Assembly: GCF_900473965.1 (NCBI RefSeq)
Contig: NZ_UCNJ01000018.1
Coordinates: 124,001-188,000, forward strand
Reading direction: 5' to 3'
Source: Synechococcus sp. UW179A
Lineage (GTDB): Bacteria > Cyanobacteriota > Cyanobacteriia > PCC-6307 > Cyanobiaceae
Length of the DNA stretch: 64,000 nt
The translations under genes were made by a program, and so were the position numbers. Positions 40,140-59,122 of the stretch are shown piece after piece. The notes beneath the pieces are model-generated. The model was not told the DNA's origin, did not search any database, and saw only the letters and a program-made list of their open reading frames with translations. The stretch's first letter is position 1; every line of letters begins with the position of its first letter.

Positions 40140-42103
40140 AGTACACACCACCATCTCAAAGCAGAGTGCGCAGGCTTCTGATTTCCAGTTCCTTTTTGAC
40201 AATCGGAGTGGGAGGTGGGCTGCCTCAAGCAACACAGGCACAGATCGTGTGGGAGGTCATCGACTCGCCTGTCGTAACCTCTCCTCCCGTGATCTGGGAA
40301 CCCGTCTCTGACTCAGACGAGCGAGTTCCATCAATGAAGGCTGTTTCTTGGCAGGTTGTGCCGGGATCGGAGCAACCAGATCAACCATCGACGGTTGTGG
40401 CTTGGGAATTGCTGGACGCTGAGGAGGTGACTAATCTCCCAACCCCAGAGACTGCGTCGACAACTGAGGTGAATCCACCCGCCAGCGTGGAACAAGCCGA
40501 AGCGCTGCTCAGCACCATCCCTCTGAAACCCAGCGATTACCTACCCCTGCTGCGACTTTCACCTTCAGTCCCCACTGCAGAAACCTTGCCCGCTGATCAG
40601 TGGCGCATCTCGTTTGGGACCATTTCGCCCTTCAAAAGCGCTGCAGGCACTGGCAATCAAAATTATTCGATCAATCTCGACGTTGGTTTCAACGACAGCC
40701 TGATGCTGTCATTTTTTATTAGTCAGGCCGATGACCCGCTCAACGCACCACTCACCGGTTTCGCAGTACAACCGGCCAATTTTTGGCAAAGCTACGGTGC
40801 CGCGGCCAGCTGGCAAGTGCTCGACCAAAACAACTGGAAGCTGGCCATCAGTGGCTCACTAGAAGCCTGGGAAGTAGGAAGTGGCGGAGACGACTCATTC
40901 TCCGCGTCAGGAGACAGTGCCAGCCCCAATATTTTTAATGACTCCGGCAGCCGAGTCTTCACACGTAATTTCGTCGGATCCATAAGCCTTCCTGCGAGCT
41001 GGCAAGCCAGCGAAAATTGGCAATTCAGCTTTGCTCCGGGTGTGAGCTTCCTGCCTTCAACGCAAGGCTCGGACCAGGGTGGAGCTGGAACGTTCTATGG
41101 AACCAACCCCTACGTCAGTGGCGGAGTTCTGTTCCAACCGTTCCCGGAGCTGGGCTTCACCGCCAGCATCGCCCAACCGATCGGCAGCGGCACTAACAGC
41201 TTCGATGCAGATCTGGTGTTTTCTCGCGTTCCCATTCTGTCCGCCGGGATCAACTGGGATCTCAATCCACGAATCGGGCTGAAAGGCTTGATCACCAATG
41301 GCTTCGGAGCAACGCCTGCCACGGCACTGCTCGCTTTACCCTCAGATAACCGGATTGGCTATTCCGCAAGCTTCGTGTTCACGCCTGGCACTGCAGATAC
41401 ACCACAGGTGCCGCTCACACCAAGGCAGCAATCGTTGGCCAAAGGGGGACTCACGGTCAACACCGCCCTGGTGCCACCGGACACCAACACAGAGGCGTGG
41501 ATCAATGCTGATAGCGGAGGGAACGTCAACGGATTCGTTGGCTATTCCCTCTCCAACATCTTCCAGCTGACTCTTTTCAGCGGTGGACTTTACAACAACG
41601 TGCCCCAAACCACGCCCCAGGCGCGCCTGTACGCCAACGATGGTGCTTGGAACTGGCGCATCGGCGGCAAAGCCGTTGCCTTTAGCCCTCTTCGTGGCGC
41701 TCCCTTCTGGGGAGGGGGGCGTATCACCCTTGGGAGAAGTAATCAAGAGAGCAGCAGCGGCCAGGGCTATGTGTTCGCAGAAACCATGGCCACCTGGGAA
41801 GCAACCAAGGGATTGGCGATCAACTTCAACCCGAAAGTGGCCTTGAGCGGTGCAGGCGACCTCTGGGGATTAGGGATCAGTTCCAATCTGCAACTCTTCC
41901 CAGGCTGGGAGCTCGTACCCGAAGGCAATGTCGTGATCAATCAACTATCCCAAAGCAACGGCACCCTGGGGCTTCGTTGGCACGCCACGGACAGCGTGGC
42001 GCTTGAGGCCTACGGAAGCACTGCTGCCTCGCTGCTCGACATTGGTCAGTTAATCAACGCCGAACAGGTGCGCTGGGGCGGACGATTACTCATCGGCTTC
42101 TAG
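40136..42103 (+). CDS. Predicted outer-membrane beta-barrel protein of the export operon
   Basis: 655 residues from a GTG overlapping the previous stop codon. A signal peptide (basic start, hydrophobic core, A-Q-A cleavage site near residue 35) is followed by four short tryptophan motifs (VWEVID, IWEPVS, SWQVVP, AWELLD) at about residues 37-93. From residue ~155 the sequence alternates like a beta-barrel with many Gly/Asn/Trp/Phe residues, and it ends in GGRLLIGF with the terminal Phe typical of outer-membrane proteins. Not a recognised family. Its place after wza- and wzc-like genes suggests a Wzi-like role in holding or exporting polysaccharide. Its end overlaps the convergent P450 gene by 14 bases. 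Confidence 0.65.
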   Translation: MKYTPPSQSRVRRLLISSSFLTIGVGGGLPQATQAQIVWEVIDSPVVTSPPVIWEPVSDSDERVPSMKAVSWQVVPGSEQPDQPSTVVAWELLDAEEVTNLPTPETASTTEVNPPASVEQAEALLSTIPLKPSDYLPLLRLSPSVPTAETLPADQWRISFGTISPFKSAAGTGNQNYSINLDVGFNDSLMLSFFISQADDPLNAPLTGFAVQPANFWQSYGAAASWQVLDQNNWKLAISGSLEAWEVGSGGDDSFSASGDSASPNIFNDSGSRVFTRNFVGSISLPASWQASENWQFSFAPGVSFLPSTQGSDQGGAGTFYGTNPYVSGGVLFQPFPELGFTASIAQPIGSGTNSFDADLVFSRVPILSAGINWDLNPRIGLKGLITNGFGATPATALLALPSDNRIGYSASFVFTPGTADTPQVPLTPRQQSLAKGGLTVNTALVPPDTNTEAWINADSGGNVNGFVGYSLSNIFQLTLFSGGLYNNVPQTTPQARLYANDGAWNWRIGGKAVAFSPLRGAPFWGGGRITLGRSNQESSSGQGYVFAETMATWEATKGLAINFNPKVALSGAGDLWGLGISSNLQLFPGWELVPEGNVVINQLSQSNGTLGLRWHATDSVALEAYGSTAASLLDIGQLINAEQVRWGGRLLIGF

Positions 42104-43532
42104 TAAACGATCTCGGAACAAGCCTCAACAGAACACCCGATGCACTGCGCAACGTGAGACGCCCGGTCCATTCAGGGCTTGAGCTGTCATCACCAGGGAA
42201 AAGCTGAAAGTGCTTGATGAGTTCAGCCAGCACCAATAAGGCTTCCTGTTGGGCAAACGCAGCTCCTGGGCATTTGCGCGGTCCTAAGCCATAGGGAAGC
42301 CAAGCTTCTTTGCGACAGAGGATCTCCTGATCCGTTGCTGTGCCATCTACAAATCGCTCCGGGCGGAATTGGTGTGGTTCCGGCCAATAGTTGTCATGGC
42401 GATGAATCACCCAAGGAGAGAAAGTCAACAACGATCCCACCGGACATCGGCTGATCGCTGGTGCTTGCTGCGGGCAATCCATCGATGGAACCGACAGGTC
42501 GGTGTCTTGATGAACCCGTTCACGAATAAAGAAACTCACCGGCGGATAGAGGCGCAAGGTTTCCTGAAACACTGCTGCCCCGAAACGAAGCTGCCTCAAG
42601 CTTTGATGCGTCACCACCTCAGGCAGAGATGCCACCTCTGCATGCAACTGGCCCTGAGCCTCTTGATCCAGAGCCAACAGCCAACAGGCACTGCTCAAGG
42701 CACTGGCTGAGGTTTCATGACCGGCCAGAAACAGAAAGCAAATCTGATCAACCAATTCCTCGGCCGTGAAGGAAGTACCGGTTTGTGGATCCACGGCGGC
42801 AAGCAGGGCACCCAGCAGATCCTTCCCACCAGCCTCAGGCTGCGCGAGTCGCTCCTCAATCACGCCTTGGATCCACTGGCGAATCACCAGCGCATCGCGC
42901 GTGAGCGAGCGCTGCACCCAACGCCGTGGCAAGCGAGCAAAACGCAAGATCAGTGCCCGGGCGGCCTTGCGTTGATAGCGCCCAAATGCCTCAAACACCT
43001 CACGCGCTTCTCCCTCCTGCACCGGTCTGCTGAGGATCGTGCGCACGATCACATCAGCGGTGACCCAGGTCATCGCAGCCTCGATATCGATTTCAACTCC
43101 TTGCTGGCTGCAATCGCCTTGCTCGGAGAGCTGCTGCACAAGCCGCTCCAACATGGAGTCTTTTGCAGCCTCCATCGCAGGAAACACCTGCTCCAACTGA
43201 GCCACCTGAAACGCCTGATCAACCAAGCGCCTCTGGCGTGCCCATTCGTCTCCATTGACAGAAAAAATCGCTCGGCCAATCAGAGGTTCAAGAATCCAAA
43301 GCGTGTAGGGGTGCTTTGGAAAGGCCTCCACCTCCTGTACGAGCACTCGCCTCAGCAGTGTTCGATCATTCACCAAAAACACCCTCAGGCCCAGCAGATT
43401 GAGCTCACCGAGAGCGATGCGGAAATCCCATTCATTGAGCAAACCAAACCAACTGCTCCATCCCCGCTTCAAGCGACGCAGCACGTTGGCGGTGTAAGGC
43501 AAGGGTTTTGGCCAAGGGGGTGTGATGGCCAT
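42090..43532 (-). CDS. Cytochrome P450
   Basis: A 480-residue soluble P450 with all hallmarks: the I-helix LAGHETSAS near residue 270, the K-helix ExxR in QETLRLYPP near 328, FRPERFVDG, and the heme loop YGLGPRKCPG with the axial Cys near residue 419. It would hydroxylate a substrate using electrons from an unseen ferredoxin partner. P450 genes are few in small picocyanobacterial genomes. Its ATG shares one base with the stop of the lipase-like gene upstream (TGATG), so the two are co-translated. The adjacent polyketide synthase and glycosyltransferases make a lipid chain a plausible substrate. Its 3' end overlaps the barrel gene by 14 bases. Confidence 0.92.
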   Translation of the reverse strand: MAITPPWPKPLPYTANVLRRLKRGWSSWFGLLNEWDFRIALGELNLLGLRVFLVNDRTLLRRVLVQEVEAFPKHPYTLWILEPLIGRAIFSVNGDEWARQRRLVDQAFQVAQLEQVFPAMEAAKDSMLERLVQQLSEQGDCSQQGVEIDIEAAMTWVTADVIVRTILSRPVQEGEAREVFEAFGRYQRKAARALILRFARLPRRWVQRSLTRDALVIRQWIQGVIEERLAQPEAGGKDLLGALLAAVDPQTGTSFTAEELVDQICFLFLAGHETSASALSSACWLLALDQEAQGQLHAEVASLPEVVTHQSLRQLRFGAAVFQETLRLYPPVSFFIRERVHQDTDLSVPSMDCPQQAPAISRCPVGSLLTFSPWVIHRHDNYWPEPHQFRPERFVDGTATDQEILCRKEAWLPYGLGPRKCPGAAFAQQEALLVLAELIKHFQLFPGDDSSSPEWTGRLTLRSASGVLLRLVPRSFTRSR

Positions 43533-44650
43533 CAGATCGTGCTCTCTCCAGTCATCAGCCCGCAGAGATCCAAACCCGCAGCGGGATTGGTCAAATAGTC
43601 GAAATGGAGGTCAAACAGCTGGGCCAGCCATTGCCGCTTGCGCTGTAAACCGTTGGCTTGACGCAGGTTCAACAGCTGCATTCGCGGATAGTCACAGCTG
43701 TCTCTCCTTGGCACAGGCAAACCGCAGGCTTGATAAGGATTCACGCCGGCAAAACACATCAAATCATCGAAGGAGGTGACATCCAGCCAGGGCAAACAGG
43801 GTTCGATCGCCAGCGTCTTGAGATCATCTAGAAAAGCCTCCGCACCTGGATACAAGCCCAGATTGGCCAGGTTCTGCCCCAGGCTCAGCAAACGCACCTT
43901 GGACGTAATAGCGATCGAATTGGGATGGCGTCGCAATTCAGCCGCCACCATCGCCAACACAAACGATCCGGAACTGTGACCCACTAACAGGATTTCATCA
44001 GCAGGAATTTTGTCTTCCAAAGACAACAATGCCCCCACCAACTCCTGCACCCGCTGGCGCAGCATCGTATCTCTCAGGCTGCCCAGGCGATGGGTGAACA
44101 AAATGGAGCGACAGAGCCACACCACACCCAAACGATCCGCCAGCCGCCAGCCCTGCCAGAGCACAACAGCCACCACCAACGGTGCCAACGGAAGCCAGAG
44201 CAAGGAAGCCAAGACCCCAGCGGCAATCGCTGCAAGCGTGACCAAAATCAAAACCATGACGGGGTAAAGCCCGCAAAGCGCCACACCAGGGCATAACCGC
44301 GCCGTACGCAGGACTCCCCCCTGCAGCAGATAGGCCCGCGCAAATCCAAGCAACTGGGTCAGCAACGGCCAGGGATGCTTTGGCCAGTTCGCACGGGCAA
44401 TGTCATCCCAATGCAAAAAAGCAAGCTCATAGTGTTGATCAACCTCAGGATCCAACAAAGGCCAGCGGGTGATCCTTTCACCTTCCTGGCGAGACCCCAA
44501 ACGCCAACCACGCTGTTTCATCAGCCGCGCAAACAAGCGCTGATAATGCGCCACACCACGGGGGTCAAACCCGCTGAGGAAGTACGTGCGTCGTCTGCAC
44601 GATGATCCGGTCTTCTTCAACTCGTCTGCTCGATTCACAGCCATGTCCAT
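43532..44650 (-). CDS. Lipase-like alpha/beta-hydrolase with central membrane segments
   Basis: 372 residues. The N-terminus has YFLSGFDPRGVAHYQR; two hydrophobic segments lie at about residues 125-165; then a nucleophile-elbow GHSSGSFVLAM near residue 223, as in lipases. A His in HFDYL near the C-terminus could complete a triad. No exact family is recognised. It is translationally coupled to the P450. The ATG at 44650 overlaps the start of the divergent START-like gene by 8 bases, so one of the two starts may be internal (a second ATG lies at 44644). Confidence 0.68.
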   Translation of the reverse strand: MDMAVNRADELKKTGSSCRRRTYFLSGFDPRGVAHYQRLFARLMKQRGWRLGSRQEGERITRWPLLDPEVDQHYELAFLHWDDIARANWPKHPWPLLTQLLGFARAYLLQGGVLRTARLCPGVALCGLYPVMVLILVTLAAIAAGVLASLLWLPLAPLVVAVVLWQGWRLADRLGVVWLCRSILFTHRLGSLRDTMLRQRVQELVGALLSLEDKIPADEILLVGHSSGSFVLAMVAAELRRHPNSIAITSKVRLLSLGQNLANLGLYPGAEAFLDDLKTLAIEPCLPWLDVTSFDDLMCFAGVNPYQACGLPVPRRDSCDYPRMQLLNLRQANGLQRKRQWLAQLFDLHFDYLTNPAAGLDLCGLMTGESTI

Positions 44651-45200
44651 CCAGCTTCACCTGCGATCTGCATTGCTCGGGCTGGGGATCGTGCTGACAC
44701 ATCTACCAGCAACGCCAGCGGACGCTGCGCAAGCAACGTCGATCCAGATCCAACAATCAGGCAACACCCGTACGGCAGTCATGACACTGCCCGTGTCACA
44801 AGCACATGCCTGGAGAGTGCTCACGAACTATGTCGCCACGGGAGAGGCGATGCCTGACATCAGCAAGGTCCAGCTGCTGAGCCGTGAAGGCAACCTGATT
44901 CGCATGCGCCAGACCTATCAAGCGCCGTACACCTTTGGATTGAAGATCAGCGCAACCCTGGCCGTACAAGAAAGCCCAAAAACGGCGATCAGCTTTCAGA
45001 TGCTTCAAGGCGATCGCATTCGCAAGCTCAATGGCAGCTGGACGCTCACGCCAACACCAACGGGAACTCGTCTGCGCCACACCATCACCCTGGTTCCCGA
45101 GCTGCCAGGCATGCTGCAACCGGTCTTCGCTGAACTCACCCGCAACAGTTTGCGTGAATCAATGCAACGACTCAGTGGGCTGATGCAGGCCAACAACTAA
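44643..45200 (+). CDS. Secreted START/SRPBCC-like lipid-binding protein
   Basis: From the ATG at 44643 this is 185 residues; a longer frame from 44586 would overlap the divergent hydrolase gene. A signal peptide (hydrophobic LLGLGIVLTHLPATPADA) ends near residue 27. The rest matches the SRPBCC/polyketide-cyclase fold, with SQAHAWRVLTNY, RMRQTYQAPYTFGL, a SGSWTL-like NGSWTLTPT and LVPELPGML. These domains bind hydrophobic ligands. It is the only plus-strand gene between the hydrolase and the GT2 gene; its stop overlaps the GT2 stop. A role as periplasmic lipid carrier or cyclase is inferred only. Confidence 0.65.
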   Translation: MSIQLHLRSALLGLGIVLTHLPATPADAAQATSIQIQQSGNTRTAVMTLPVSQAHAWRVLTNYVATGEAMPDISKVQLLSREGNLIRMRQTYQAPYTFGLKISATLAVQESPKTAISFQMLQGDRIRKLNGSWTLTPTPTGTRLRHTITLVPELPGMLQPVFAELTRNSLRESMQRLSGLMQANN

Positions 45201-46375
45201 ACCTCAACACCCCGATCCCTGCAGAGCACCACGCGCGAGGGCCTTAGCTGCACGGCGTAGTCGACACCACGCCATGAAACATGGCGCGTTAACAAGGCCG
45301 ACAAGGTGGCCAGTCCATCCACCAATTGGCCAGGGAGAAGTCCTACGAGCCAGCCCCAAACCCGAACAGGGTCCTGTGGGCGCAGCAAAACTTGGATCCA
45401 GCAGAGCAGGCCAACACATCCCAGCTCATAGATCAGCACTGCCAACCAGGCACCTTGAAACAGCGCGAACAGCAACAGCAGCACACTGCCCAGGCCGTGG
45501 AAGGCCACAAGTGGCCAAGCGGGGTGGTGCAGGCGAGCTGTGAGCAATTGACGAGTAATCCAACGGCCCAACGGCAGCATGGGCTGGGCTGGATCAGGAT
45601 CCACCATGAGCAGGTTGGGTTCGAAGCGATAGCTCAATCCCAACTGCCGCAATGGGCCGAGCAAACCCGTGTCTTCACACAAACCACGCCTTAACAGCTC
45701 GCTCCAATCACCGGCCTCCACCAGCTCACGGCGAACGCAAAGGGTGCCGCCCCAGGGAATCTGCAACAACGTCATCAGCACCACAGCCCCTGCATTCCAG
45801 ACGGCTCGTGTCCAGCTGCTCCAACCCAAAGCTCCAAAGGTGGGGGCATGGGGGCGAAACCAACGATTTCCAGAGATGGCACCCACCCCTGGTTGGAGGC
45901 AAGAGCGCGCACAATGTTCCAAGCCGTTCGCTGGGAAACGAATATCGGCATCCAGCAGCACAACCAATGCGCTGCTGGGGTGAAGCTGAGACAACGCCTG
46001 GTTCAGTGCTGCACATTTCAAAGACCCCTGGTCAGGGCGCTGAAGAAGGCTGCAGCAGCGCAACTCAGTCCAGGCCACATCCTCACGAGCTCGCCAAGGC
46101 TTAAGCAAGTCCCAGGCTGGATCCTGATCACTGTCCACCACCACCTGCAACCGCCAGGGAGCGGGATAGCTCTGATCAGCCAACGCCTCCAGCAACCGCG
46201 GCAAACAGGCATCGACACCGCGCAAACACAACACCACTTCCAAGGAAGGCCAAGCACCTTCAGGAAGAGATGCTGGATCGGACGAACGACGCAAAACCCG
46301 CAAACGCTGGCTGAAGGCAAAAACAAGCAGGGCTTGCCCAAGCCATAGGGCCAAGAGCAACACCGAGGCTGGCAT
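45197..46375 (-). CDS. Membrane GT2 family glycosyltransferase
   Basis: 392 residues from the ATG at 46375, which shares a base with the PKS stop (TGATG); a longer upstream frame overlapping the PKS is not needed. It has an N-terminal membrane helix, GT-A motif VVLCLRGVDAC, a metal-binding VLLDADIRFP near residue 139, GLCEDTGLLGP near 245 and an R-W pair in LGRWITRQL, then several C-terminal membrane helices. This is the processive-like/HpnB-like architecture that glycosylates lipids at the inner membrane. Direct coupling to the PKS suggests it glycosylates the PKS-derived lipid. Confidence 0.8.
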   Translation of the reverse strand: MPASVLLLALWLGQALLVFAFSQRLRVLRRSSDPASLPEGAWPSLEVVLCLRGVDACLPRLLEALADQSYPAPWRLQVVVDSDQDPAWDLLKPWRAREDVAWTELRCCSLLQRPDQGSLKCAALNQALSQLHPSSALVVLLDADIRFPANGLEHCARSCLQPGVGAISGNRWFRPHAPTFGALGWSSWTRAVWNAGAVVLMTLLQIPWGGTLCVRRELVEAGDWSELLRRGLCEDTGLLGPLRQLGLSYRFEPNLLMVDPDPAQPMLPLGRWITRQLLTARLHHPAWPLVAFHGLGSVLLLLFALFQGAWLAVLIYELGCVGLLCWIQVLLRPQDPVRVWGWLVGLLPGQLVDGLATLSALLTRHVSWRGVDYAVQLRPSRVVLCRDRGVEV

Positions 46376-49300
46376 CAGCGAGCCAGTTGTTCCTGCTGAA
46401 GCAGCACTGAGGCCCAGGGCCCAATCAACTGATGCCAGGGGGGGCAGCGCACACCATGGGTCTCCAAAACCTGAGCCGTGTAGGCACAGCTGGGGCGAGC
46501 CCGCTGACCCACGCAATTGCGCTCGGGATAGGTCAGCCCATCTTCACCCCAACTCTGCTGCAGGAAGGGCAGCAAAGGCTGGAGAGGATTTCCTGGGCTC
46601 CGCTCAATCTCAACAATCCACTCCTGCATCGGCAAAACGCGCCAACCGTCCATGCCATCGGTGAGTTGCCTCAACAGAGTGGTGAGCAGGAGCGGTTCAG
46701 GATGCTGGAGATGGAAAGCATGCCCTTGTGCCTCGTCACTCCAGGCCAGAGCCGACACGGCATCAGCAACGTAATCAACAGGCACCACATCCAATTCCCA
46801 GGCCAAATCAGGCGAAGCACCCAACACCAAACAGCCCTGGAGCAGGCGCTGAAGCAAGTCGCCTTGGTGCCAAGCACTTCCGCAGGATGGACCTGCAATC
46901 AACGGGGGCCGGTAGATCGAAACAGGCAGTCCGGCTGCTGAAGCGCGGCGCACCATCCGGTCCGTGACCCATTTGGTTTGGGAGTAGCCGAGCTGGATGC
47001 CTCGCCAATCCTCGAGCGGATCGTCTTCCTGAATCAACTGATCCCGGCAGGCATCGGCCTCAAACACCGCCACGCTGGAGATCAAGGCGAATCGTTTTGG
47101 TGTGTCCGCAGCTGCTAGACGCAGAAGCTCGCGCGTTCCGCCCACATTGGTGGCCGCCAATTGGGCATAGCTCGCCATCTGGCTCAACTGGGCACCGTTG
47201 TGGAGGATGCCGCCAATGCCCTTGCCAAGTGCAGCAAACTGGCCGGCATCCAAGCCCAACCGAGGCTGGGCGAGATCGCCAAGAACCACCTCCAATCGCT
47301 CCTGCCAGGCCTGCTGCCAAAGCCCATAACGGCGGAGGTTCTGCTCCAACCGCTCCATGCCTTGCTGCTCAGAGGCCGCTCGCACCAAACAGCGAATCCG
47401 CAAATCCGGCCATTGGCTGAGTTGTCCCGCCAGGAGATAGGCACCGAGGAAGCCACTCGCGCCAGTCAGCAGAAGCTGTTCTCCAGGCGCCTCCACGGAC
47501 GGGCCCTCCGGCAATGACCAACGGTCGTCCAGCTGAGCCTCCTGACCAAGATCCAATCCCTCCTGTGCCGCTGCAGACCCATCGGGCAACAAGCGCTCGA
47601 GAGCCATGCTGGCCAGATCATCCAGGCAGGGGGCGTCGCTGAACGCAGCCAGATCAAGGCGCCAGCCCAATGCTTGCTGCACTTCGGCAGCAAACTCTGC
47701 CGCCATCAGCGAATCGAGCCCTAAATCAAACAGGCTGGCGTGAGCATCGAGCTGAGCTTCCGGTTCTTCCATCACTGCGGCCAGAAGCTGTTGAAGCGTC
47801 GACAGCAGCCAGGGCCTGCGCTGATCCGCTGTCAAAGCCTCCAACTGAGCGCGAACCTGGGCTTCTGATCGGCCCGGAAGTTCATGAATCAAGGACCGGA
47901 ACCAAGCCGCCTGGCGGGGCAGGGCCTGACTGACGAACTGCGGCCAATCGACTGCCATCACCGCGACCACTCCGCTGCGGCCTCGCTGCAGCAATGACTC
48001 CAGAGCCGACAACGCTTCGTCTTCCGCCAGAAGATGAAGACCTACGGATTCAAAGCGCCGCTCCAACCCTGCAGCCATGCCCGAACCAGCCCAAGGCCCC
48101 CACTGAATCGCCAGCTGGACTGGCCCATCAGAGTCCGCATGGCGGCAGCTGGATTGAACAGCCCCATTGGCAGCGGCATAGACCAACTGGCCAGGCGAAC
48201 CCAGTGCCGCGGCGATGGACGAGAACACCACCTGGAAGTCGAGGTGTTCAAAATCTGCTGGCTGCAGCCTTTGAAGCTTGTCCAGTTGCTGCTGGGGACC
48301 AAGTTTTGCCTCAAACACGGCATCGAGACTGGAACGTTCAATCCCACCAACGCGCTGATCTTTCAGCACTCCAGCAGCATGGAAGACGCCACGCAGCGGC
48401 ATGTCCTGAGGCAATTCAGCGAGTGCTTGCGGAAGGTCGTCCCAGCAGAGCGCCTCAACCTGCACACCCTGAGAACGGATGCGGTCCAACCACTCGGCCG
48501 TTTCCGAGCTTGGTGCTGGCAGACGTCGACCCACCAACAACAACGAGCGCGCCCCCCGATCCACCAACCAGGACTGCAAACGTTGCCCGATCCCTCCAAA
48601 AGCACCCACCACCAGATAAGTGCCGTCGGTGCGAATGGCACAAGGAGGGGCTTGGCTGGGCAGGGTGATCACCAACTTGCCCACATGCTTGCCCTGCGCC
48701 ATCCGCCGAAAAGCGTCCTTGCACTTCTCCAAAGCAAAGGCTGAGACCGGCAACGCGGGCAGGGTTTGGTCCTGGGAACCCGCCACCAATCGCAGCAATC
48801 GCTGCCTCAAGGGTTGTGGGTCGCGAGCTGCCACTTCCAGCAGGTCAAAGCGGAAATAGCCCACGTCAGGCCGTCGTTCGCTCACCTGCTGGTCGCTCCA
48901 GATCTCCAACTTGCCAAGCTCCACAAAGCGCCCGCTAGAAGCCAGCGCCTGGAAACTGGCATCCACCCACTCACCTTTCAGGCTGTTCAGAACCACATCA
49001 ACGCCGCGGCCTTCGGTGTGCTTGAGCACCTGTTCAGCGAAATCAGTAGAGCGGGAATCGAAGACCGCCTCCACACCTTGCTCCAACAATCCAGCCTGTT
49101 TGGCCTCACTGGCGGTGGCCAGGATGCGAGCACCACAGCGCAAGGCCACCTGCACAGCTGCCTGCCCCACACCACCGGCAGCCGCATGAATCAAAACCGT
49201 TTCTCCAGCTTGAAGCCGGGCCAGCTGCTCGAGCCCATGCTCCGCCGTGAGATAGGCCGTTGAAAGGCTCGCCCCCAGCACGGGATCCAACTCGTCTGGC

Positions 49301-52300
49301 CAGGGCACGCAGAGGACGGCTCTGCAAGTTACGTGGCTTGCCAGGGTTCCAAGGGTGAGCGCGGCAAGCATTCGCTGGCCCAGCAACGAGGAATCCACCC
49401 CGGGACCAACAGCGACCACCCTCCCGACGGCTTCGCCACCGAAAGGCAATTGAGCATTGGCTCTCAGCCCGAGGGATTGATTGTGACTTTGCAGAAGCCC
49501 CAAAGCGTTGAGAACATCGCGAAAGTTCAGCCCCGTGGCCTCCACCGCCAACTCCAGCTCTCCTGGCAGAAGACGCGCCAGCGGCAAGGGCGCCTTCAGC
49601 AACCCCTCAAGTCGACCAGTTCCATCGGAAAGCATGCGAAACCGTTCTTGATCAATGGTCTGAAAACTGCGGGTTTCAATTCGATCAGAACCACACCAGC
49701 GAATCTCCGCATCACCGGCAGTGGCAGCCAAAAGCTGTTGCCACTCAGCGGATGACAGCCCTGCAGCAAGGGCAGAAGGGGACGCTGTGATCGTGCTGCA
49801 ACGCCATGCGGAACAGTCCTGGGCCAGGGAACGTACTGCCGCCTGGACCGCCTCAGCAGCAGGGGTGGAGAAAGCCGACATCCACAACAGCAGCTGGCGC
49901 GGCTGAGTGAGAGGAAGCGCCTGGAGTTGTTGCACCAGCGCTGAAGTCACCGATTGTGGATCCGCTTGTGGATCCAGTTCAAAAGGCGTGATCGCCTGCT
50001 GCTCGCTCCATTCCCTCACGGCATCTGGCAATGGCCCAATCGCAATCAGGCTGATGGGCTCAGCCGCTCCTGGGCTCCAGTCGCTGAGTGCGTGTGCCGC
50101 AAGGGGTTGCCAGATCTCCTCCAGCAATTGCGCAGCAGGTCTGGAAGGGCCCTCAGGCAGCATCAACTCCAGCAACGTCCGCGTCAGACGCCGGAACTGC
50201 AGGCCACGGATCGCTCCGAGGAAGTCCCCGGAGAGATCAAGAACATCCAAGTCAGCAGTCACATGGGCGCGACTGACCTCATCTCCCTGGCTGTGATCGT
50301 CTCGTCGAAGTTGCAAGCGACAACGCAGCTGGTCGGGCAAGGGCCATCGCAACATCTGCATCTGCTCCACGCCCACAGGGAGTAGCAAGTGGCCATCGGC
50401 GTGCGTTTGGGCAAGGACCGCAGCCACCAGTTGAAAACAACCATCGATCAGGCTGCGATCAGGCGCCGCCTCCGGACGCTGCAGCAGTGCTTCGGCGCCT
50501 ATGGCGTTGGCTTGCAAAGCAACAAGCGGCCGGTAGCAGTTGCCGTAATCCAGCCCAAGACGCTTCAGGGAACGGTAGAAATTGGCAACATCAAGGCCAG
50601 CAGCAGGGTCAAACGCCAATGCCGGCAGGGGCTGAATGGGTTGTTCAGCAGCTGTGGTGAGCCGAAGCTGCCCATGGAGCTGCCAGCTGCCGCCGTCTTC
50701 GAGCTGGGGAGCGCGGGAATGGAAGCTGAACGCATCACCGTTTCGTACAGCCTGGAGCTGTACCGATCCGGCGTTGAGCCACAGCGGACGATCGAGATTG
50801 AGATCAGCACATTGAAGTGGCTGTTGTTGATCGTTCAACCAATCCAGCAGCAGGGCGAGATAACCCGCTGCCGCAAACAGGGGATAGCCGCACAACGCAT
50901 GGTCAGGGAGGTCGCGAGCATCAGCCGGATCCAACACGGTCTGCCAATGCTCTGACGCTCCTGGGAGGTCCAACTTCTGCAAAGCCAGACCTGACTGCTC
51001 AGCGGTAACACTGCTGCCAAAGCCGACGTGATCCAACCAAAGACTGGCTTTGCCTTGGTCCAGACCCTGATCCCGTGGCGTCCACCAAAAACGTGAACGC
51101 AGAAAGGGATGACCTGGAGGCCGCAGCTGATGCCATGAGGCACCTTGATGCCATGCCAACCAATCCATCGGAGCTCCTTGAGCCAAAGCCTGAACAAGCT
51201 TCTGGAGCTGCTCAAAACCAACGGCACCCTCAGACAGAGTTTGCTGTTTCAGATCTCCCAACGTCTCTGGCAGTCCACCAGGTCCACGCGCAGCAACGAC
51301 ACCGGTCCACGCCGCAGGGGCTTGCCCGCGCAACTGGCGTACCAGGTCTTGAACACTGCTCGCAATTAACCCCAGCGCATGGGGACATGGGGAGCGTCGC
51401 AGATGAATGCTGGCGCAGAGGTCCTGCAAGCGGAAAGCAGCATGATCCTCAAGCCAATCCGCTGTTTGAGCACGAAGCAAATCAAGAGCTTCCTCGTTGC
51501 GCGCGCTCAACCAGAGCAGGTGCCATGAAGGAGCTGATAACGACGTTGACGCGGGTTGAGAAAGTTCAAGAGGTGGACTGCTCAGAACGGCATGAGCGTT
51601 GGTGCCACCGAATCCAAACGAGCTGACACTGACCACCAGTTCCTGCTCAGGTCTTGGGAAAGGTTGCAGCGTTGTCGCAACCTTCAAGCCCAGAGCAGCC
51701 AGATCCACACTGGGATTAGGCCGCGAATAATGGAGGCTCGCAGGCACCATGCGCTGCCTGAGGCACAACACGGCTTTGATGAAACCCGTAATGCCTGCAG
51801 CGGTTTCTGAATGACCCACATTGGTTTTCACCGAGCCAACCAAACAGGGGTCAGTGCTTGGCCGCTCCTCCCCCAACACCGCTCCAAGGGCCCTGAGTTC
51901 AATGGGATCCCCCTGGCGCGTCCCTGTGCCGTGGGCTTCAACCAATTGCGCTGAAGCCGGGGACAAGCCAGAGCCCTGATAGGCGGCTTGCACACAAGCG
52001 ATCTGGGCTTTTTTGCTGGGTGCGGCCAGGCCCTTACTGCGCCCATCGGAATTGACCGCCGTGCCCCGAATCACTGCTTCAATCGGATCACCATCACGCA
52101 ACGCCGTCGCCAAGGGCTTAAGCAGCACAGCCCCCGCCCCTTCAGAACGCACATAACCATCAGCAGCAGCATCAAAGCTGCGGCAACGCCCCTCGGGCGA
52201 CAGCAAGCCTGCTTTGCAGAAACTCATCTGAATGGCGGGGTGAATCAAAGCCTGAGCACCGCCAGCCAAGGCCAGTTCCGATTCACCACGCCTCAAGCTC

Positions 52301-52902
52301 TCGCAAGCCAGATGCAAAGCCACCAACGACGAAGAACAAGCCGTGTCCACCGTGAAGCTGGGTCCTTTCAGATCAAAGGCGTAAGAAATCCTGTTGGCGG
52401 CAATGGAACCGGTGTTGCCGGTGAGAATGAAGGGTTCGTTGTCCGGCGTGAGGTATTGCTCTTCAGAGGCCCAAAGCAGAGCTCGGTAATCCGCGCTGGA
52501 AATGCCCATGAACACTCCCACTGGGCGTCCACGCAACTGGTCAAGGGGCTGGGCAGCCGCCTCCATGGCCCTCCAGCACACCTCAAGCAACAGGCGCTGC
52601 TGAGGGTCCATGCATTGGGCTTCCCTGCCGCTAATGCCAAACAAGGCTGGATCGAACAGGTCGATCCCATCCACCAAGCCCGCCCGGCGCACATGCTGGT
52701 GCAACGGCGTGCGCGGATCAGGATGATGGTGAAGCTGAAGATCCCAACGATCTGAGGGAATTTCGGCGATCGCCTCCCGTCCTTCAGCCAGAAGTTGCCA
52801 GAACTGTTCAGGACTCTCGACCCCGCCAGGGAGACGGCAGCCCATCCCCAAAACAGCGATGGGCTCGTGCACTGAGGAAACCGGACGGATCTGTTGATTC
52901 AT
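46375..52902 (-). CDS. Type I reducing polyketide synthase, KS-DH-ER-KR-ACP-TR, acyltransferase domain missing
   Basis: 2175 residues. KS: Cys near 186 in DTACSSS, His in EAHGTGT near 322 and NVGHSETAAG, all intact. After the KS comes a KS-AT linker (LSARNEEALDLL, LRRSPCPHALGLI), but no GHSxG acyltransferase; the post-AT linker with GAPMDWLAW and PGHPFLRSRFWW then follows directly (to ~640). DH: His near 668 in LPDHALCGYPLF, Asp near 817 in SLIDGCFQ. ER: AAAGGVGQAA near 1244. KR: VVGAFGGIGQ near 1434, YAAAN Tyr near 1572. ACP Ser in GLDSLMAAE near 1729. Thioester reductase from ~1803 with LTGASGFLGA and YSQTKW. It would build a saturated chain and release it reductively as an aldehyde or alcohol, taking malonyl from an AT in trans. 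Confidence 0.93.
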   Translation of the reverse strand: MNQQIRPVSSVHEPIAVLGMGCRLPGGVESPEQFWQLLAEGREAIAEIPSDRWDLQLHHHPDPRTPLHQHVRRAGLVDGIDLFDPALFGISGREAQCMDPQQRLLLEVCWRAMEAAAQPLDQLRGRPVGVFMGISSADYRALLWASEEQYLTPDNEPFILTGNTGSIAANRISYAFDLKGPSFTVDTACSSSLVALHLACESLRRGESELALAGGAQALIHPAIQMSFCKAGLLSPEGRCRSFDAAADGYVRSEGAGAVLLKPLATALRDGDPIEAVIRGTAVNSDGRSKGLAAPSKKAQIACVQAAYQGSGLSPASAQLVEAHGTGTRQGDPIELRALGAVLGEERPSTDPCLVGSVKTNVGHSETAAGITGFIKAVLCLRQRMVPASLHYSRPNPSVDLAALGLKVATTLQPFPRPEQELVVSVSSFGFGGTNAHAVLSSPPLELSQPASTSLSAPSWHLLWLSARNEEALDLLRAQTADWLEDHAAFRLQDLCASIHLRRSPCPHALGLIASSVQDLVRQLRGQAPAAWTGVVAARGPGGLPETLGDLKQQTLSEGAVGFEQLQKLVQALAQGAPMDWLAWHQGASWHQLRPPGHPFLRSRFWWTPRDQGLDQGKASLWLDHVGFGSSVTAEQSGLALQKLDLPGASEHWQTVLDPADARDLPDHALCGYPLFAAAGYLALLLDWLNDQQQPLQCADLNLDRPLWLNAGSVQLQAVRNGDAFSFHSRAPQLEDGGSWQLHGQLRLTTAAEQPIQPLPALAFDPAAGLDVANFYRSLKRLGLDYGNCYRPLVALQANAIGAEALLQRPEAAPDRSLIDGCFQLVAAVLAQTHADGHLLLPVGVEQMQMLRWPLPDQLRCRLQLRRDDHSQGDEVSRAHVTADLDVLDLSGDFLGAIRGLQFRRLTRTLLELMLPEGPSRPAAQLLEEIWQPLAAHALSDWSPGAAEPISLIAIGPLPDAVREWSEQQAITPFELDPQADPQSVTSALVQQLQALPLTQPRQLLLWMSAFSTPAAEAVQAAVRSLAQDCSAWRCSTITASPSALAAGLSSAEWQQLLAATAGDAEIRWCGSDRIETRSFQTIDQERFRMLSDGTGRLEGLLKAPLPLARLLPGELELAVEATGLNFRDVLNALGLLQSHNQSLGLRANAQLPFGGEAVGRVVAVGPGVDSSLLGQRMLAALTLGTLASHVTCRAVLCVPWPDELDPVLGASLSTAYLTAEHGLEQLARLQAGETVLIHAAAGGVGQAAVQVALRCGARILATASEAKQAGLLEQGVEAVFDSRSTDFAEQVLKHTEGRGVDVVLNSLKGEWVDASFQALASSGRFVELGKLEIWSDQQVSERRPDVGYFRFDLLEVAARDPQPLRQRLLRLVAGSQDQTLPALPVSAFALEKCKDAFRRMAQGKHVGKLVITLPSQAPPCAIRTDGTYLVVGAFGGIGQRLQSWLVDRGARSLLLVGRRLPAPSSETAEWLDRIRSQGVQVEALCWDDLPQALAELPQDMPLRGVFHAAGVLKDQRVGGIERSSLDAVFEAKLGPQQQLDKLQRLQPADFEHLDFQVVFSSIAAALGSPGQLVYAAANGAVQSSCRHADSDGPVQLAIQWGPWAGSGMAAGLERRFESVGLHLLAEDEALSALESLLQRGRSGVVAVMAVDWPQFVSQALPRQAAWFRSLIHELPGRSEAQVRAQLEALTADQRRPWLLSTLQQLLAAVMEEPEAQLDAHASLFDLGLDSLMAAEFAAEVQQALGWRLDLAAFSDAPCLDDLASMALERLLPDGSAAAQEGLDLGQEAQLDDRWSLPEGPSVEAPGEQLLLTGASGFLGAYLLAGQLSQWPDLRIRCLVRAASEQQGMERLEQNLRRYGLWQQAWQERLEVVLGDLAQPRLGLDAGQFAALGKGIGGILHNGAQLSQMASYAQLAATNVGGTRELLRLAAADTPKRFALISSVAVFEADACRDQLIQEDDPLEDWRGIQLGYSQTKWVTDRMVRRASAAGLPVSIYRPPLIAGPSCGSAWHQGDLLQRLLQGCLVLGASPDLAWELDVVPVDYVADAVSALAWSDEAQGHAFHLQHPEPLLLTTLLRQLTDGMDGWRVLPMQEWIVEIERSPGNPLQPLLPFLQQSWGEDGLTYPERNCVGQRARPSCAYTAQVLETHGVRCPPWHQLIGPWASVLLQQEQLAR

Positions 52903-53241: not shown

Positions 53242-54564
53242 TCAAAGACCTTCCGCCTGGACATTGGATGGGTTTGCCCCCAAACAAAGGTGTTTCCAAG
53301 ACAGGCCGGCGGCAATCACCCAGCCCGTAGCACCGATGGCAATCGCCATCACACGACCCTCCCCGGTGCCAAGACTCTCTGTTAACCAAGCTGGCCACAC
53401 GGGCCATGCGAGTGCCGGGCGCAAACCGTAGTCAACCAGCAGTGGTACGCCCAGAAAGGCAAACAACCGGGTTGACCATTCGCAGCCGTAGCGCAGTGAA
53501 AAGTAGCGAGGCAGTGCTTCCCGGGGAGCCAGGGTCACCCAGGCTTGGTGAATTGATGCCATCACAACGGGCAAGGCTGCACTGAACACCAAGACAGCTC
53601 CAAACCAAACCACGGGTCGATGCGCAAAGGCTTGCAAGCCAGTACCCATCAAGATCAGCGCCTGGATGATCAGGCTCAAAGGCAGGACAGTTCGCCAGTG
53701 CTGCCCCAATCGCCATCGCCAGCCAGCAAACCCGATCAAATACCCCAAGCAGCCTGTGATCAGGACCCAACCCATCCGCTCAGGCGCATAGGCCAGCGCC
53801 ACCCAAGCAGGAAACAGCACTTCTAAAGAGGCGTAGACAAATGCCGTGAGTGCAGTGATCACTAGAGCTGAGCGCGCTGGAAATGAGCGCTTCCAGAGCG
53901 CAAGCAAACGATTCCACGTGCGAGGAGCCATGAGCTGATTCGACGCCGTCGGTGCAACCCAATCGAACTGCTGCGCAGCCTGAAACCAGGGAGCCACCAC
54001 AACGCTCAACAGGGCAAACAAAAAACTGATGCCATCGAGCAGCAGCACACCTCCCAGGCCCTGACTGGCGACAAGCCAGCTCCCCAGGAAGGGAGCCATG
54101 GTGATCACTAAGCCATCCACGGTGGCGAACAATCCATTGGCTCGCTGTAAACGCTCTTGATCGGAGATCAGCAGCGGAATCAGGCTGGAGAGACGCACCA
54201 CCAACAAGGCTTCAGCCACAGCGGCCAAAGCTTGAATCGCTAAAACGCCGAGCAACCAAGGTGGCTCATCAGCGGAAGAGCCGAGCAACACACCAGCCGA
54301 CAAAGCAGTGCACACTGCTCCCGTGGCATGGCAGAGCACCATCAAACGCCCTGGACGCCATGCCGGGAAAACGCGCAAAAACAGCGGCAACGCCAGCAAA
54401 CGTGCCGCCTGCACCACCATGGCCACCAAACCAAAATCGAGGAGTTGGCCCGACTGAGCAAACAACCAAAGCCCGATTCCATAGAGACTCGTCTGAGTTC
54501 CCAGATTGGAAATCAGCTGGCCGCCCCAGAGATAGCGAAACAGGCGACTGGATCTCTTGGCCAC
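53242..54564 (-). CDS. MFS transporter
   Basis: A 440-residue polytopic protein with about twelve hydrophobic segments. The opening RLFRYLWGGQLISNLGTQTSLYGIG and the loops PLFLRVFPAWRPGRLMVL and ISDQERLQRANGLFATVD, plus the LAPREALPRYFSL element late in the protein, match the MFS_3 (EntS/enterobactin-exporter-like) subgroup of efflux permeases. The predicted start is GTG. It is upstream of the PKS on the same strand and downstream of an MGDG-synthase-like transferase, so export of the polyketide lipid is a reasonable but unproven role. Confidence 0.85.
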   Translation of the reverse strand: MAKRSSRLFRYLWGGQLISNLGTQTSLYGIGLWLFAQSGQLLDFGLVAMVVQAARLLALPLFLRVFPAWRPGRLMVLCHATGAVCTALSAGVLLGSSADEPPWLLGVLAIQALAAVAEALLVVRLSSLIPLLISDQERLQRANGLFATVDGLVITMAPFLGSWLVASQGLGGVLLLDGISFLFALLSVVVAPWFQAAQQFDWVAPTASNQLMAPRTWNRLLALWKRSFPARSALVITALTAFVYASLEVLFPAWVALAYAPERMGWVLITGCLGYLIGFAGWRWRLGQHWRTVLPLSLIIQALILMGTGLQAFAHRPVVWFGAVLVFSAALPVVMASIHQAWVTLAPREALPRYFSLRYGCEWSTRLFAFLGVPLLVDYGLRPALAWPVWPAWLTESLGTGEGRVMAIAIGATGWVIAAGLSWKHLCLGANPSNVQAEGL

Positions 54565-54668: not shown

Positions 54669-55796
54669 TCAGACCAGTGCCTTTGGACCATGGAAGAGAA
54701 GCTGACGTATCGCGTCTCTGTCGGCGCTGAGTCGGTGACGCTGCATGCGTGCCTTCAGCTGTTGATACTGGTGCGGCTGCTCAAGCCAGCTCCGACACAG
54801 TGCGACAAGATCCTTTGGCTGACGGATACAGCGATCAATCTCGCGGGCCTGGAAATAGCGGCGAGCCAATAATTCCTGAGGCATGGTTGTGCCAAAGCCA
54901 TTGAAAATCAGCACACAGCCAGAGGCCAGAGCTTCAGTGGATGTTCTTGCACCAGGCCGCGCCACCATGGCCCAGGCTGTTCTGTAAAGCGATGCCATCG
55001 CTGCTGGGCCTTGAAAAGCCAACGGCTCAACCTTCAGCTGAGAATGCTGCGCCGCCCATTCCTGCACCTGCCGAAATGCCGCCTGACGACGGCCGCAGAG
55101 GGCGACAACCCTGATCATCCCCGCCAAGGGCAGCAGCGTCTCCAGCAAACGAATGTGGTTGTTGGCCCCGTTGGCCCCAGCCCCCAGCACCAGGAGTGGT
55201 AGAGGCTCGACATCACTCTCTGAAATCTCGCGCTCCAGTTCCTCTTCAAAGGCGGGATCAAACAACGGCCCCAGAGCCGGCGTCGGCAAGGCGCGATAAC
55301 CACGCCTGCGTACATCATCGCTGACTTCCTGGGAGAGGGTCCAGAACGCTTCGGCCCTTCGCGTCAGCCAGTTGCGACTGAAACCAAAACCGCCTTCCAA
55401 CTCAGTACAGCAGGTGATGCAGCGCAAACCGGGCACGACCCGCTTCGCCAGATCGAAGTGACCGCGGTTGATATGGGGGTGGGTGGAGATCAACAGATCA
55501 GGCTGCAAACGCCGCAACAGACGAATCACATAAAAGCGCCCGGCGAGCAAGGTTCCTGGCTTGGTGACGTCTTCCCATTCCACAACACGCCAATAGATCT
55601 GATGCATCCAGGGCCCATGGCGCTGAATCCAGTTGTAGAGAGCAACTCCCGCGCGGGTAAAAACGCTGGCATTTTCCAGCACATGCTCAACCCACACCTC
55701 ACCGGTTGGATCCCATTGCTTAAGCCAGGCCTCCAACGCATAAGCAGCGGCGTCATGGGCTGTGCCACCACTCGACGTGAAAATCAAAACCCTCAT
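54669..55796 (-). CDS. GT28 MGDG-synthase-like glycosyltransferase
   Basis: 375 residues with the MGDG synthase/GT28 layout: FTSSGGTAHDAAAYALEAWL at the start, LLISTHPHINRGH near residue 103, CCTELEGGFGFSR, a donor-domain LLVLGAGANGANNHI near residue 202, and RPGARTSTEALASGCVLIFNGFG near residue 290, the nucleotide-sugar-binding segment of this family. Such enzymes transfer sugar (often galactose) from UDP-sugar to a lipid. The divergent galE 126 bases away provides UDP-Gal, which favours galactose. In this locus the acceptor may be a PKS-made alcohol rather than diacylglycerol. It is the second glycosyltransferase of the cluster. Confidence 0.8.
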   Translation of the reverse strand: MRVLIFTSSGGTAHDAAAYALEAWLKQWDPTGEVWVEHVLENASVFTRAGVALYNWIQRHGPWMHQIYWRVVEWEDVTKPGTLLAGRFYVIRLLRRLQPDLLISTHPHINRGHFDLAKRVVPGLRCITCCTELEGGFGFSRNWLTRRAEAFWTLSQEVSDDVRRRGYRALPTPALGPLFDPAFEEELEREISESDVEPLPLLVLGAGANGANNHIRLLETLLPLAGMIRVVALCGRRQAAFRQVQEWAAQHSQLKVEPLAFQGPAAMASLYRTAWAMVARPGARTSTEALASGCVLIFNGFGTTMPQELLARRYFQAREIDRCIRQPKDLVALCRSWLEQPHQYQQLKARMQRHRLSADRDAIRQLLFHGPKALV

Positions 55797-56983: not shown

Positions 56984-56987
<4 letters not shown>

Positions 56988-59122
56988 GTGGTCTTATGCT
57001 GGCCGGTGGCGGACATAGCCACGCGCTGGTGTTGCGCCGCTGGGCCATGCAACCCAGCAAGCGCCCCAAGGAACTGATCACGCTGGTGAGCCGAACCAGC
57101 ACCGCCCTTTATTCAGGCATGGTGCCTGGCCTGATCGCAGGGATCTATCAACGCTCGCAGGTAGCCATCGACCTGCGCGACTTGGCCGATCAAGCCGGCG
57201 TGGCACTGGTAGTGGCCAAGATCACCGGACTAGACCTTCAGAACCAGCAGCTGCAGCTGGATCAGCGGCCAGCACTGTCCTACGAGCGCCTCAGCCTCAA
57301 CCTGGGTGCTGAAACTTCAATAAGCCCAGCGCCAACTTCCGGACTAGTGCCAATCAAGCCGCTGGAGCCAGCACTGGCCTTCCTGACCGACCAGGACCAG
57401 CTGATTGTCGACACAGGTTTTGCATCCTCAAGTTTTCAGGTGGTGGGCAGCGGCCTGGCCGCAGTGGAGACGGTCTTGGCTCTCAGGCAGCGCTGGCCCA
57501 GGCGTCCTCTTCTGCTGCGGGTCCGCCCTAGGCATCTGAAACCCGCTTTGATCAGAGCTCTACGGGAAGCCTCCATCCAGATCCTTGAAACAAGCAAGCT
57601 GGATCCAACAGAAGAGCTCAAGACAACTCCAGGACTTGTTTGCACCGGCAGCCGAGCACCCCACTGGCTGGCCTCCAGTGGCCTGCCTTGCTGCCCAAGC
57701 AGCGGCCGGATCCGCACCGAGGCGAGCCTGCAGGTGATTGGACACCCCAAGCTCTTCGCTGCAGGCGACTGCGCTGTGATCGATGCGCAGCCGCGTGCCC
57801 CGTCAGGAGTCTGGGCCGTGAGGGCCGCCGCGCCATTGGCCCGCAACCTGGAAGCAGCTTGCGAAGGTCGACCTTTGCGACGCTGGCGCCCTCAACGCCA
57901 GGCGCTGCAACTGCTGGGCGGGTTCAACAAAGGGCAACCTACTGCCTGGGGACTACGGGGATCACGCCTGATCGGCCCTCACCCCCTGCTATGGCGCCTC
58001 AAATCGGCCATTGATGCGCGCTTCATGGCGATGTTTCGGCGCAGCAGATCCATGGACAGCACCGAAGCAATGGCCTGCAGGGGCTGCGCAGCAAAGCTTC
58101 CCGCTGGGCCCCTGGAAAGTGCCCTGCAGCACGCCGGCATCGCAACGCTGGGAATGCAACCCGAAGATGCCGCAGTACTGCCGTTGAACACCGCCGTGGG
58201 GATGGCTCCAGTGCTGCAAAGCGTGGATGGCTTTCCAGCCCTGGTCAGTGACCCTTGGCTCAACGGACGACTCACTGCCCTGCATGCCTGCTCCGACCTC
58301 TGGGCCTGCGGTTCGCGCGTGCTGGCTGCCCAGGTCGTGGTCACCCTGCCCCAAACCACAGAATCCACCCAAGAGACCCTGCTGGCCCAGACCCTGGCGG
58401 GCATCCGCTCCGCCCTTGATCCCCAGGGCGCCCAACTGATCGGTGGTCACACGCTGGAGACCCGCGATGGCTTCGCCCAACCACCTCTCAGCCGGGCTGT
58501 CCAGGTGACACTAAGTGTCAGCGGCCAAGCCGTTGATCTGTTCTGGCCCAAGGCAGGGCTTCGGGCCGGAGACCGACTGTTGCTCAGTCGTCCGCTGGGA
58601 ACAGGAGTGCTGTTTGCCGCGGCCATGACCGGTGCTGCTCCAGCTCCAGCTCTGGATTTAGCTCTCGAACAAATGGGCACGAGCCAGCACGTCTTGCTGG
58701 AGGAGCTTCTGGAGCTGCAAAGCGAGCATCCAAATGCCATCCATGCGGCGACCGACATCACCGGCTTCGGACTGCTGGGCCATCTGGGCGAAATGTTGCG
58801 CAATCCGGGCCTGAAAGTGGTGCTCAATGGCTCCCAGATCCCTGCAGTTCCTGAAGCTCTCTCATTACTGGCCAAGGGCTACGCAAGCAGCCTGGCCCCC
58901 GCCAACCGACGAGCCTGGAGCTTGCTGGACAACGGAGATGTGGATCTGCAGCTGGCAAGCATCGAGCCAAGGAGCATGGAGCATCAAGCCTTGCTCGAGC
59001 TGCTGGTGGATCCGCAAACCTGCGGGCCATTGCTGATCAGCGTGAACGCCCATATCGCCCAGCAGCTGATGTCTCACCCCAACACGGCTTGGACCGAAAT
59101 CGGCAGCGTGCAACAACGCTGA
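56984..59122 (+). CDS. selD: Fusion of NADH-dehydrogenase-like flavoprotein and selenide,water dikinase
   Basis: 712 residues. The N-terminal ~345 residues are a pyridine-nucleotide/FAD oxidoreductase (LAGGGHSHALVL near residue 6, VVGSGLAAVE near 152, FAAGDCAVID near 258). The C-terminal part is SelD: the catalytic ACRGCAAKLP (Cys/Lys) near residue 365, ATDITGFGLLGHLGEM near 587 and DPQTCGPLLIS near 675. SelD makes selenophosphate from selenide and ATP, used for selenouridine in tRNA or selenoproteins. This two-domain fusion is known in cyanobacteria and marine bacteria; the redox half may supply reducing power. Residues needed for phosphotransfer appear retained. It follows galE with a 4-base overlap. 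Confidence 0.9.

Follow-up and report, generated by a model that had tools for sequence, protein, structure and literature searches.

A picocyanobacterial polyketide synthase without its acyltransferase: probable loss in place and FabD as likely supplier

How does a polyketide synthase (PKS) that has no acyltransferase (AT) obtain its building blocks, and how did it come to be without one? The question is raised by a gene of Synechococcus sp. UW179A (family Cyanobiaceae) that lies in a stretch of 64,000 nucleotides, hereafter the window (contig NZ_UCNJ01000018.1, positions 124,001 to 188,000). It encodes a ketosynthase (KS), a linker domain (LD), a dehydratase (DH), an enoyl reductase (ER), a ketoreductase (KR), an acyl carrier protein (ACP) and a thioester reductase (TR) in one frame (Table 1). 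An earlier note on this DNA, made from its letters alone, had read the gene as a canonical module with the AT cut out and both flanking linkers kept. We find that the AT is indeed absent, and consider it probable that a cis-AT synthase, one carrying its own AT, was converted once into an AT-less enzyme fed by FabD.

Pfam searches (E up to 1) detected KS, KAsynt_C_assoc, CurL-like_PKS_C, PS-DH, ER, KR, PP-binding and NAD_binding_4 in the protein and no match to Acyl_transf_1 (PF00698) anywhere in its 2175 residues. A local AT hidden Markov model (HMM) trained on 17 cis ATs and 31 FabDs matched all 19 cis homologues (17 of them being training sequences) and none of the 18 AT-less proteins described below at E <= 10. 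Neither search found an AT in residues 440-640, where the earlier note had expected none. Its motifs were borne out (LSARNEEALDLL at residues 465-476 in the linker, GAPMDWLAW at 576-584 and PFLRSRFWW at 599-607), as was its statement that GHSxG is lacking, since this motif occurs nowhere in the protein. Its figure of about 300 residues for cis-AT modules also agrees with the alignment, in which the end of the LD and the post-AT element are 300-362 residues apart in the 19 cis proteins, against 50 here and 28-50 in the 18 AT-less ones. Intact GHSxG is present in 17 of the 19 AT-bearing homologues. The stretch left in the AT-less proteins can be matched first to the beginning of the AT (...LAWLFTGQGSQ... 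against ...AAWTG...) and further on to the helix and DW motif that follow the AT. The AT-less protein of genome G295 (L079) has a spacer of only 28 residues and the DW part of its post-AT linker is gone.

An AlphaFold2 model of residues 1-640 (17 alignment rows, pLDDT 83.6) predicted a strand (532-535) and two helices (547-555 and 560-574) in the spacer. When this model was searched with Foldseek the smallest E-values went to KS-AT didomains of the cis-AT kind (CurL, 43% identity, target TM 0.56), and the most similar sequences (43-44% identity) were likewise cis-AT. The best two-sided fit was with the trans-AT KS units of bacillaene and isomigrastatin (4na1, TM 0.84/0.89, 32% identity), and the model fits the trans-AT structures 4na1, 4zdn and 4qyr on both sides. 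As modelled, the KS-linker unit is therefore cis-AT in sequence and trans-AT in shape. Alignment, model and Foldseek agree that the hallmark unit of trans-AT PKSs, a KS, linker domain and post-AT linker with an AT stub, is present, and the target shares the missing AT, the linker domain, the short stub and the post-AT linker with bacillaene PksJ/PksL and isomigrastatin MgsE/MgsF. It differs from these in its KS, which lies apart from 12 of 13 references, and in that no dedicated AT gene was found. Judged from sequence, keeping both linkers is normal in ordinary trans-AT PKSs too and no proof of a recent deletion; for this reason the case for deletion rests on AT-bearing genes found at the locus of the target.

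To place the gene in its family we surveyed 400 genomes of Cyanobiaceae, 60 of which matched at E <= 1e-50. The full-length alignment holds 18 AT-less genomes, the source genome included, and 16 cis-bearing genomes with 19 cis genes; as the remaining 26 of the 60 (fragments, other PKSs and one stump) lie outside it, the AT-less form is present in at least 18 of the 400. The 17 other AT-less proteins have the same structure at 44-94% identity, which rules out an assembly artefact. The structure proposed in the earlier note thus stands, not as the loss of one strain but as a form common to at least 18 genomes. The KS stretch of cis relatives (G158, G018 and others) is 57-66% identical. Within the source genus 10 of 31 genomes match: six with AT-less PKSs, three with other PKSs at 34-38% identity, and G101 with a KS stump. 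This stump (L080:10001-10423; 141 residues of KS, 80% identical) adjoins a GT28 gene (368-residue match) and is probably the trace of a recent loss of the synthase. Eleven AT-less loci have a G+C content of 32-45% in genomes of 1.1-2.0 Mb, which suggests Prochlorococcus-like hosts. Among 717 plasmid records none was closer, all being below 60% identity.

The AT-less and AT-bearing forms share a locus. A GT28 gene lies no more than two genes from the PKS in 18/18 AT-less and 13/19 cis loci, and was not found in the fetched stretch around the remaining six cis genes. These cis reducing synthases of Cyanobiaceae (KS-AT-DH-ER-KR-ACP-TR; G158, G018 and others) have the domain order of the target and carry in addition an integrated AT of about 300 residues, with GHSxG in 17 of the 19. 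Because 13 of the 19 AT-bearing genes share the neighbourhood of the AT-less gene, the AT was most likely lost in place.

Phylogeny points in the same direction. The large KS tree had 82 rows, 17 of 99 having been dropped (Streptomyces loci near a kept one, short rows and some cyanobacterial KSs), and its 13 trans-AT-type references, 8 of which are unbroken from KS to post-AT element, took their label from the locus. The AT-less proteins formed one clade (support 88) within a group of AT-bearing cyanobacterial KSs, and 12 of the 13 references fell elsewhere. The target KS thus groups with cis-AT cyanobacterial KSs and outside the trans-AT KS lineage, which, with the AT-bearing genes of the shared locus, supports the deletion from a canonical cis module that the earlier note had proposed. 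The clade was recovered in a KS tree rooted on 7 outgroup KSs (94/91), where the cis copies were monophyletic in 0% of 200 bootstrap trees, and in a whole-protein tree without AT columns (100/100; simple model, composition warnings, root placed on G076 by choice). Seven alignment columns split AT-less from cis proteins, none of them in the linker domain or the ACP. Downstream of the KS, 5 of the 7 nearest outgroup sequences have an AT bearing GHSxG and HAFHS; the other two gave no AT match in open reading frames of 483 and 474 residues. Because five of the seven carry an AT, parsimony would make the AT-less state derived whether or not its clade is nested within the cis copies. In the FabD tree of the hosts 17 AT-less genomes came together (100/99, root on G076 by choice), as expected under vertical descent, with which this grouping appears consistent.

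Relics of a decaying AT survive in the related genus g19, where the AT stretch is present in 4 of 6 genomes. G018 and both copies of G137 have an intact GHSAG. G068 and G118 have GHGAG, the codon of the catalytic Ser having changed from AGC to GGC (L060:4801-4821 and L059:7506-7526), and in G118 an in-frame deletion has also removed 68 residues of the AT, including HxFH. The other catalytic residues checked are retained in both, except that in G068 the ACP and the start of the TR are masked by, or adjacent to, a stretch of N. By sequence, a PKS with a dead AT thus seems to persist in g19 alongside a standalone FabD-type protein encoded in the same genomes. Elsewhere among cyanobacterial KS loci, L119, L133 and L135 contain AT fragments in which the local HMM region has no GHSxG, possibly further cases of AT decay.

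The synthase itself appears to be in working order. The KS retains Cys-His-His in 18/18 AT-less and 19/19 cis proteins, and wherever an AT-less protein extends far enough it also has the His/Asp of the DH, GGVG of the ER, Ser-Tyr-Asn of the KR, Ser of the ACP and Tyr-Lys of the TR. The dN/dS ratio of the PKS is 0.145 against G289, 0.173 against AG-673-A03 and 0.143 against G034 (0.118 against G222, with synonymous sites near saturation), and falls to 0.07-0.11 in the KS alone; by these ratios the AT-less PKS is under purifying selection. A pseudogene is ruled out by these ratios, by the catalytic residues and by frames that are open in all 18 genomes, with the copy of the metagenome-assembled genome G087 cut at a contig end.

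Which protein could then load the ACP? We searched 33 genomes for PF00698 (18 AT-less, the stump genome G101 and 14 cis genomes, G163 and G280 not included). G101 and all AT-less genomes but one (17 of 18) gave a single match of about 280 positions. Thirteen of the 14 cis genomes have a standalone match besides the PKS AT, and G227 has the PKS AT only. Repeating the search at E = 10 in 10 AT-less genomes added just two fragments of about 30 residues (E 0.11 and 0.44). The standalone AT that the earlier note had suggested looking for is, in the source genome (G000, 99.97% complete), the only PF00698 protein and is FabD (TIGR00128, 287 bits against a cut-off of 261), encoded next to the FabH gene; a dedicated discrete AT was found neither in the cluster nor elsewhere in the genome. 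All 31 standalone AT-family proteins that we extracted retain GHSLG and GAFHS (the NCBIfam assignment is that of the source genome only). In the 19 cis ATs the HxFH motif reads HAFH in 15 and HGFH or LGFH in three (all from g19), and is lost in one. We take HAFH to be a malonyl motif; as 15 of the 19 carry it, the unit coming from FabD would in most cases be that of the former cis AT. By analogy with published precedents FabD is most likely the malonyl supplier of the AT-less PKS. FabD loads the ACP of the AT-less PipC of Pseudomonas entomophila (PMC12828459), evidence points to it as the supplier for BrnF in Sulfurospirillum barnesii (PMC13096860), and the malonyl-CoA:ACP transacylase of S. 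coelicolor restored a DEBS module with an inactivated AT (PMC6164871).

The ACP may carry a mark of such a partner. Its net charge per 100 residues averages -17.3 in the AT-less proteins (n=17, -21.9 to -13.8) and -11.4 in the cis proteins (n=18, -15.2 to -9.1; G068 was excluded as its ACP is masked by N), and lies at -20 to -22 in six of the seven housekeeping AcpP matches, those of the six genomes probed. No clear acid shift was seen in KS, DH, KR, ER or TR, and a slight one in the unassigned residues 911-1100. When the groups were compared for excess divergence, the ACP came top of 148 windows (1.42, median 1.02), which is a hint at most, the windows overlapping and the clade being a single one. 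The shift fits recognition by FabD and, as one contrast of a clade with its relatives, only hints at it.

Taken together our results point to the following history, of which we infer the direction (loss rather than gain), the loading by FabD, the chemistry and the product. The ancestor would have been a cis-AT synthase of one module that reduced its chain fully and ended in a thioester reductase. In the ancestor of the 18 genomes the entire AT of about 300 residues would have been lost in one conversion that spared the KS-AT linker domain, the post-AT linker and, of the AT itself, a stub of its first strand. FabD would now load malonyl onto the PKS ACP in trans, the KS would extend an acyl starter by condensation, KR, DH and ER would saturate the chain, and the TR would release an aldehyde or alcohol. 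The P450, GT28 and GT2 enzymes may decorate the product, perhaps into a glycolipid, that the MFS protein perhaps exports. On the best reading the AT-less PKS functions like a trans-AT PKS and stands outside the trans-AT KS lineage. Our confidence is evenly divided over a fuller account, in which the conversion was a graded natural one (working AT, dead Ser-to-Gly AT, internally deleted AT, full excision with linkers kept), the ACP was adapted to FabD by acquiring a more acidic, AcpP-like surface, and a trans-AT architecture arose by AT loss alone with no new AT gene. Genome streamlining is not claimed as the cause, the AT-less genomes measuring 1.1-3.3 Mb and the 14 cis genomes 1.8-4.1 Mb.

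Several observations weigh against this history. In the KS tree the reference L125 (G644), itself an AT-less KS unit with contiguous residues 13-606, sits among cis-AT cyanobacterial KSs, perhaps by an independent AT loss. The grouping of all 19 cis copies as one clade was not rejected by the approximately unbiased (AU) test (p 0.149), and nesting of the AT-less clade inside the cis copies is favoured by the trees, not proven; because the AU test leaves cis monophyly standing, the case for loss rests on the AT-bearing outgroups and the AT relics. The trees also differ over which group is sister to the AT-less proteins: g19 (93/95) in the tree without AT columns, the G076/G347/G262b group in the outgroup-rooted KS tree. 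At the protein level the Gly of the DH motif HxxxG varies in AT-less and cis proteins alike, the charge of the linker domain also moves (from +4.6 in cis to -1.0 in AT-less proteins), and the ACP charge ranges of the two groups overlap in what is a contrast of one clade with the rest. Finally G087, whose AT-less PKS is cut at a contig end, gives no PF00698 match, and the ACP of PipC acylates itself at 25 uM or more (PMC12828459).

The last two points bear on other ways of feeding the synthase. Given that not even FabD was recovered from G087 and that some acyltransferases fall outside PF00698, the PKS could be fed by an enzyme of another family or by a second AT missed in assembly; this is unlikely, as 17 genomes, several of them in a single contig, agree on one PF00698 protein, and those window neighbours that are conserved around AT-less forms are found around cis forms too. 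Following PipC, the ACP could instead malonylate itself from malonyl-CoA with no loading enzyme, which we regard as quite unlikely: FabD-catalysed loading of PipC was measured above the self-acylation background (PMC12828459), and the acid shift toward AcpP hints, weakly, at a protein partner. It is very improbable that elongation has ceased or the synthase is in decay, its AT having been lost as unneeded. The patchy presence in the source genus (6 of 31 genomes AT-less, one with a KS stump only) and the truncated post-AT linker of G295 would suit such decay, but all AT-less copies retain the catalytic residues they reach, with dN/dS at 0.14-0.17 overall and lower in the KS. That an ordinary trans-AT PKS was gained by horizontal transfer is scarcely credible, its matching KS-LD-stub-post-AT anatomy notwithstanding, and the KS tree and the locus shared with cis homologues speak against an ordinary trans-AT origin, as does the FabD tree, which groups the AT-less hosts as well.

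Table 1. The AT-less synthase, its parts and the neighbouring genes (positions in the window)
Feature	Position	Strand	Basis
AT-less polyketide synthase, 2175 residues, open frame: KS-LD-(AT missing)-DH-(unassigned 911-1100)-ER-KR-ACP-TR	46375..52902	-	ORF (open reading frame), Pfam, TIGR01746
Ketosynthase, residues 13-440; Cys189, His324, His364 retained	51583..52866	-	Pfam, alignment
KS-to-AT linker domain, residues 461-525, contains LSARNEEALDLL	51328..51522	-	PF22621 CurL-like_PKS_C (461-524); high pLDDT in model
50-residue spacer, residues 526-575, at the AT site of cis relatives; stub AAWTG retained, aligned with first AT strand	51178..51327	-	alignment, model
Post-AT linker, residues 576-610: GAPMDWLAW, PFLRSRFWW	51073..51177	-	alignment with cis relatives and trans-AT-type references
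Dehydratase, residues 640-910; His668, Asp820 retained	50173..50985	-	PF14765/PF21089, alignment
Enoyl reductase, residues 1105-1413	48664..49590	-	PF13602/PF00107
Ketoreductase, residues 1425-1620; Ser1562, Tyr1575, Asn1579 retained	48043..48630	-	PF08659, alignment
Acyl carrier protein, residues 1702-1766, Ser1731	47605..47799	-	PF00550
Thioester reductase, residues 1810-2170, YxxxK retained	46393..47475	-	TIGR01746 above cut-off, alignment
MFS transporter of the conserved locus	53242..54564	-	PF07690, synteny
GT28 / diacylglycerol-glycosyltransferase-like; second gene upstream of the PKS here, adjoins the PKS in most relatives	54669..55796	-	PF06925; NF010135 below cut-off; synteny
GT2 glycosyltransferase, HpnI-like; ORF overlaps PKS 3' end (46375-46516) as listed	45197..46516	-	PF00535; TIGR03472 below cut-off; synteny
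START-like 'Polyketide_cyc' protein	44586..45200	+	PF03364, synteny
Conserved protein, weak alpha/beta-hydrolase similarity	43532..44650	-	sub-threshold PF01764, synteny
Cytochrome P450	42090..43532	-	PF00067, synteny

Within the synthase, residues 911-1100 between DH and ER have no Pfam family match of their own and may, judged from their position, be a structural pseudo-KR. Around it the MFS, GT2, START-like and P450 genes and two conserved genes recur near most GT28-bearing loci in a nearly constant order; the order of MFS and GT28 is swapped in the window, in G289 and in L002, the MFS gene has moved in G222, and no P450 gene was found in the fetched stretches of G222 and G295 (some contigs end early). 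The alpha/beta-hydrolase-like gene was considered as a gained replacement AT and ruled out, as it adjoins cis forms too. The START-like gene and its opposite-strand neighbour overlap at 44586-44650 as listed. Flanking the PKS locus at 37234-42103 are Poly_export, Wzz and a 655-residue protein without Pfam match, whose gene is shared with 14 of the other 17 AT-less loci, and at 56984-59122 lies an oxidoreductase/SelD-related fusion protein (TIGR04369 above cut-off).

Among known systems, PipC (pseudotetraivprolide) and BrnF (barnesin A) resemble the target most directly as PKSs without an AT for which their authors found no dedicated trans-AT and took FabD as supplier (PMC12828459, PMC13096860), and FabD is the only AT of the source genome as well. 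They belong to hybrid pathways of nonribosomal peptide synthetase and PKS, whereas the target is a reducing PKS that stands alone and ends in a reductase, with a KS of the cis-AT kind and AT-bearing homologues surviving at the same locus; FabD loading, measured for PipC and indicated for BrnF, is in the target deduced from sequence. The AT-null DEBS module 6 is likewise a cis-AT module without a working AT that a transacylase can feed, laboratory-made where the target is seemingly natural (PMC6164871). In 2014 the PKS cluster family CF-20 was described as widespread in picocyanobacteria with conserved gene order (PMC4247773); from its main-text description it may be the target locus, and the main text nowhere uses the terms 'trans-AT' or 'AT-less'. 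Judged from titles and abstract openings, none of the matches listed from the open-licence literature describes an AT-less or FabD-fed PKS in picocyanobacteria. AT-less and FabD-fed PKSs as such are already known, and the target would be an AT-less synthase of cis-AT descent.

From an evolutionary point of view the locus offers a closer look at how such enzymes arise. The origin of AT-less (trans-AT) synthases has mostly been discussed on the basis of deep KS trees. In the present family synthases with and without an AT occur at one locus, and a related genus has damaged ATs; both the transition and the choice of supplier therefore become directly testable with small proteins (ACP and FabD). 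The natural boundaries along which an AT was removed without breaking the module are useful for PKS engineering. Relatives with intact, damaged and missing ATs suggest the route by which such a switch occurs in nature and, if our reading is true, a lipid-type pathway of picocyanobacteria would be tied to the housekeeping malonyl supply of the cell.

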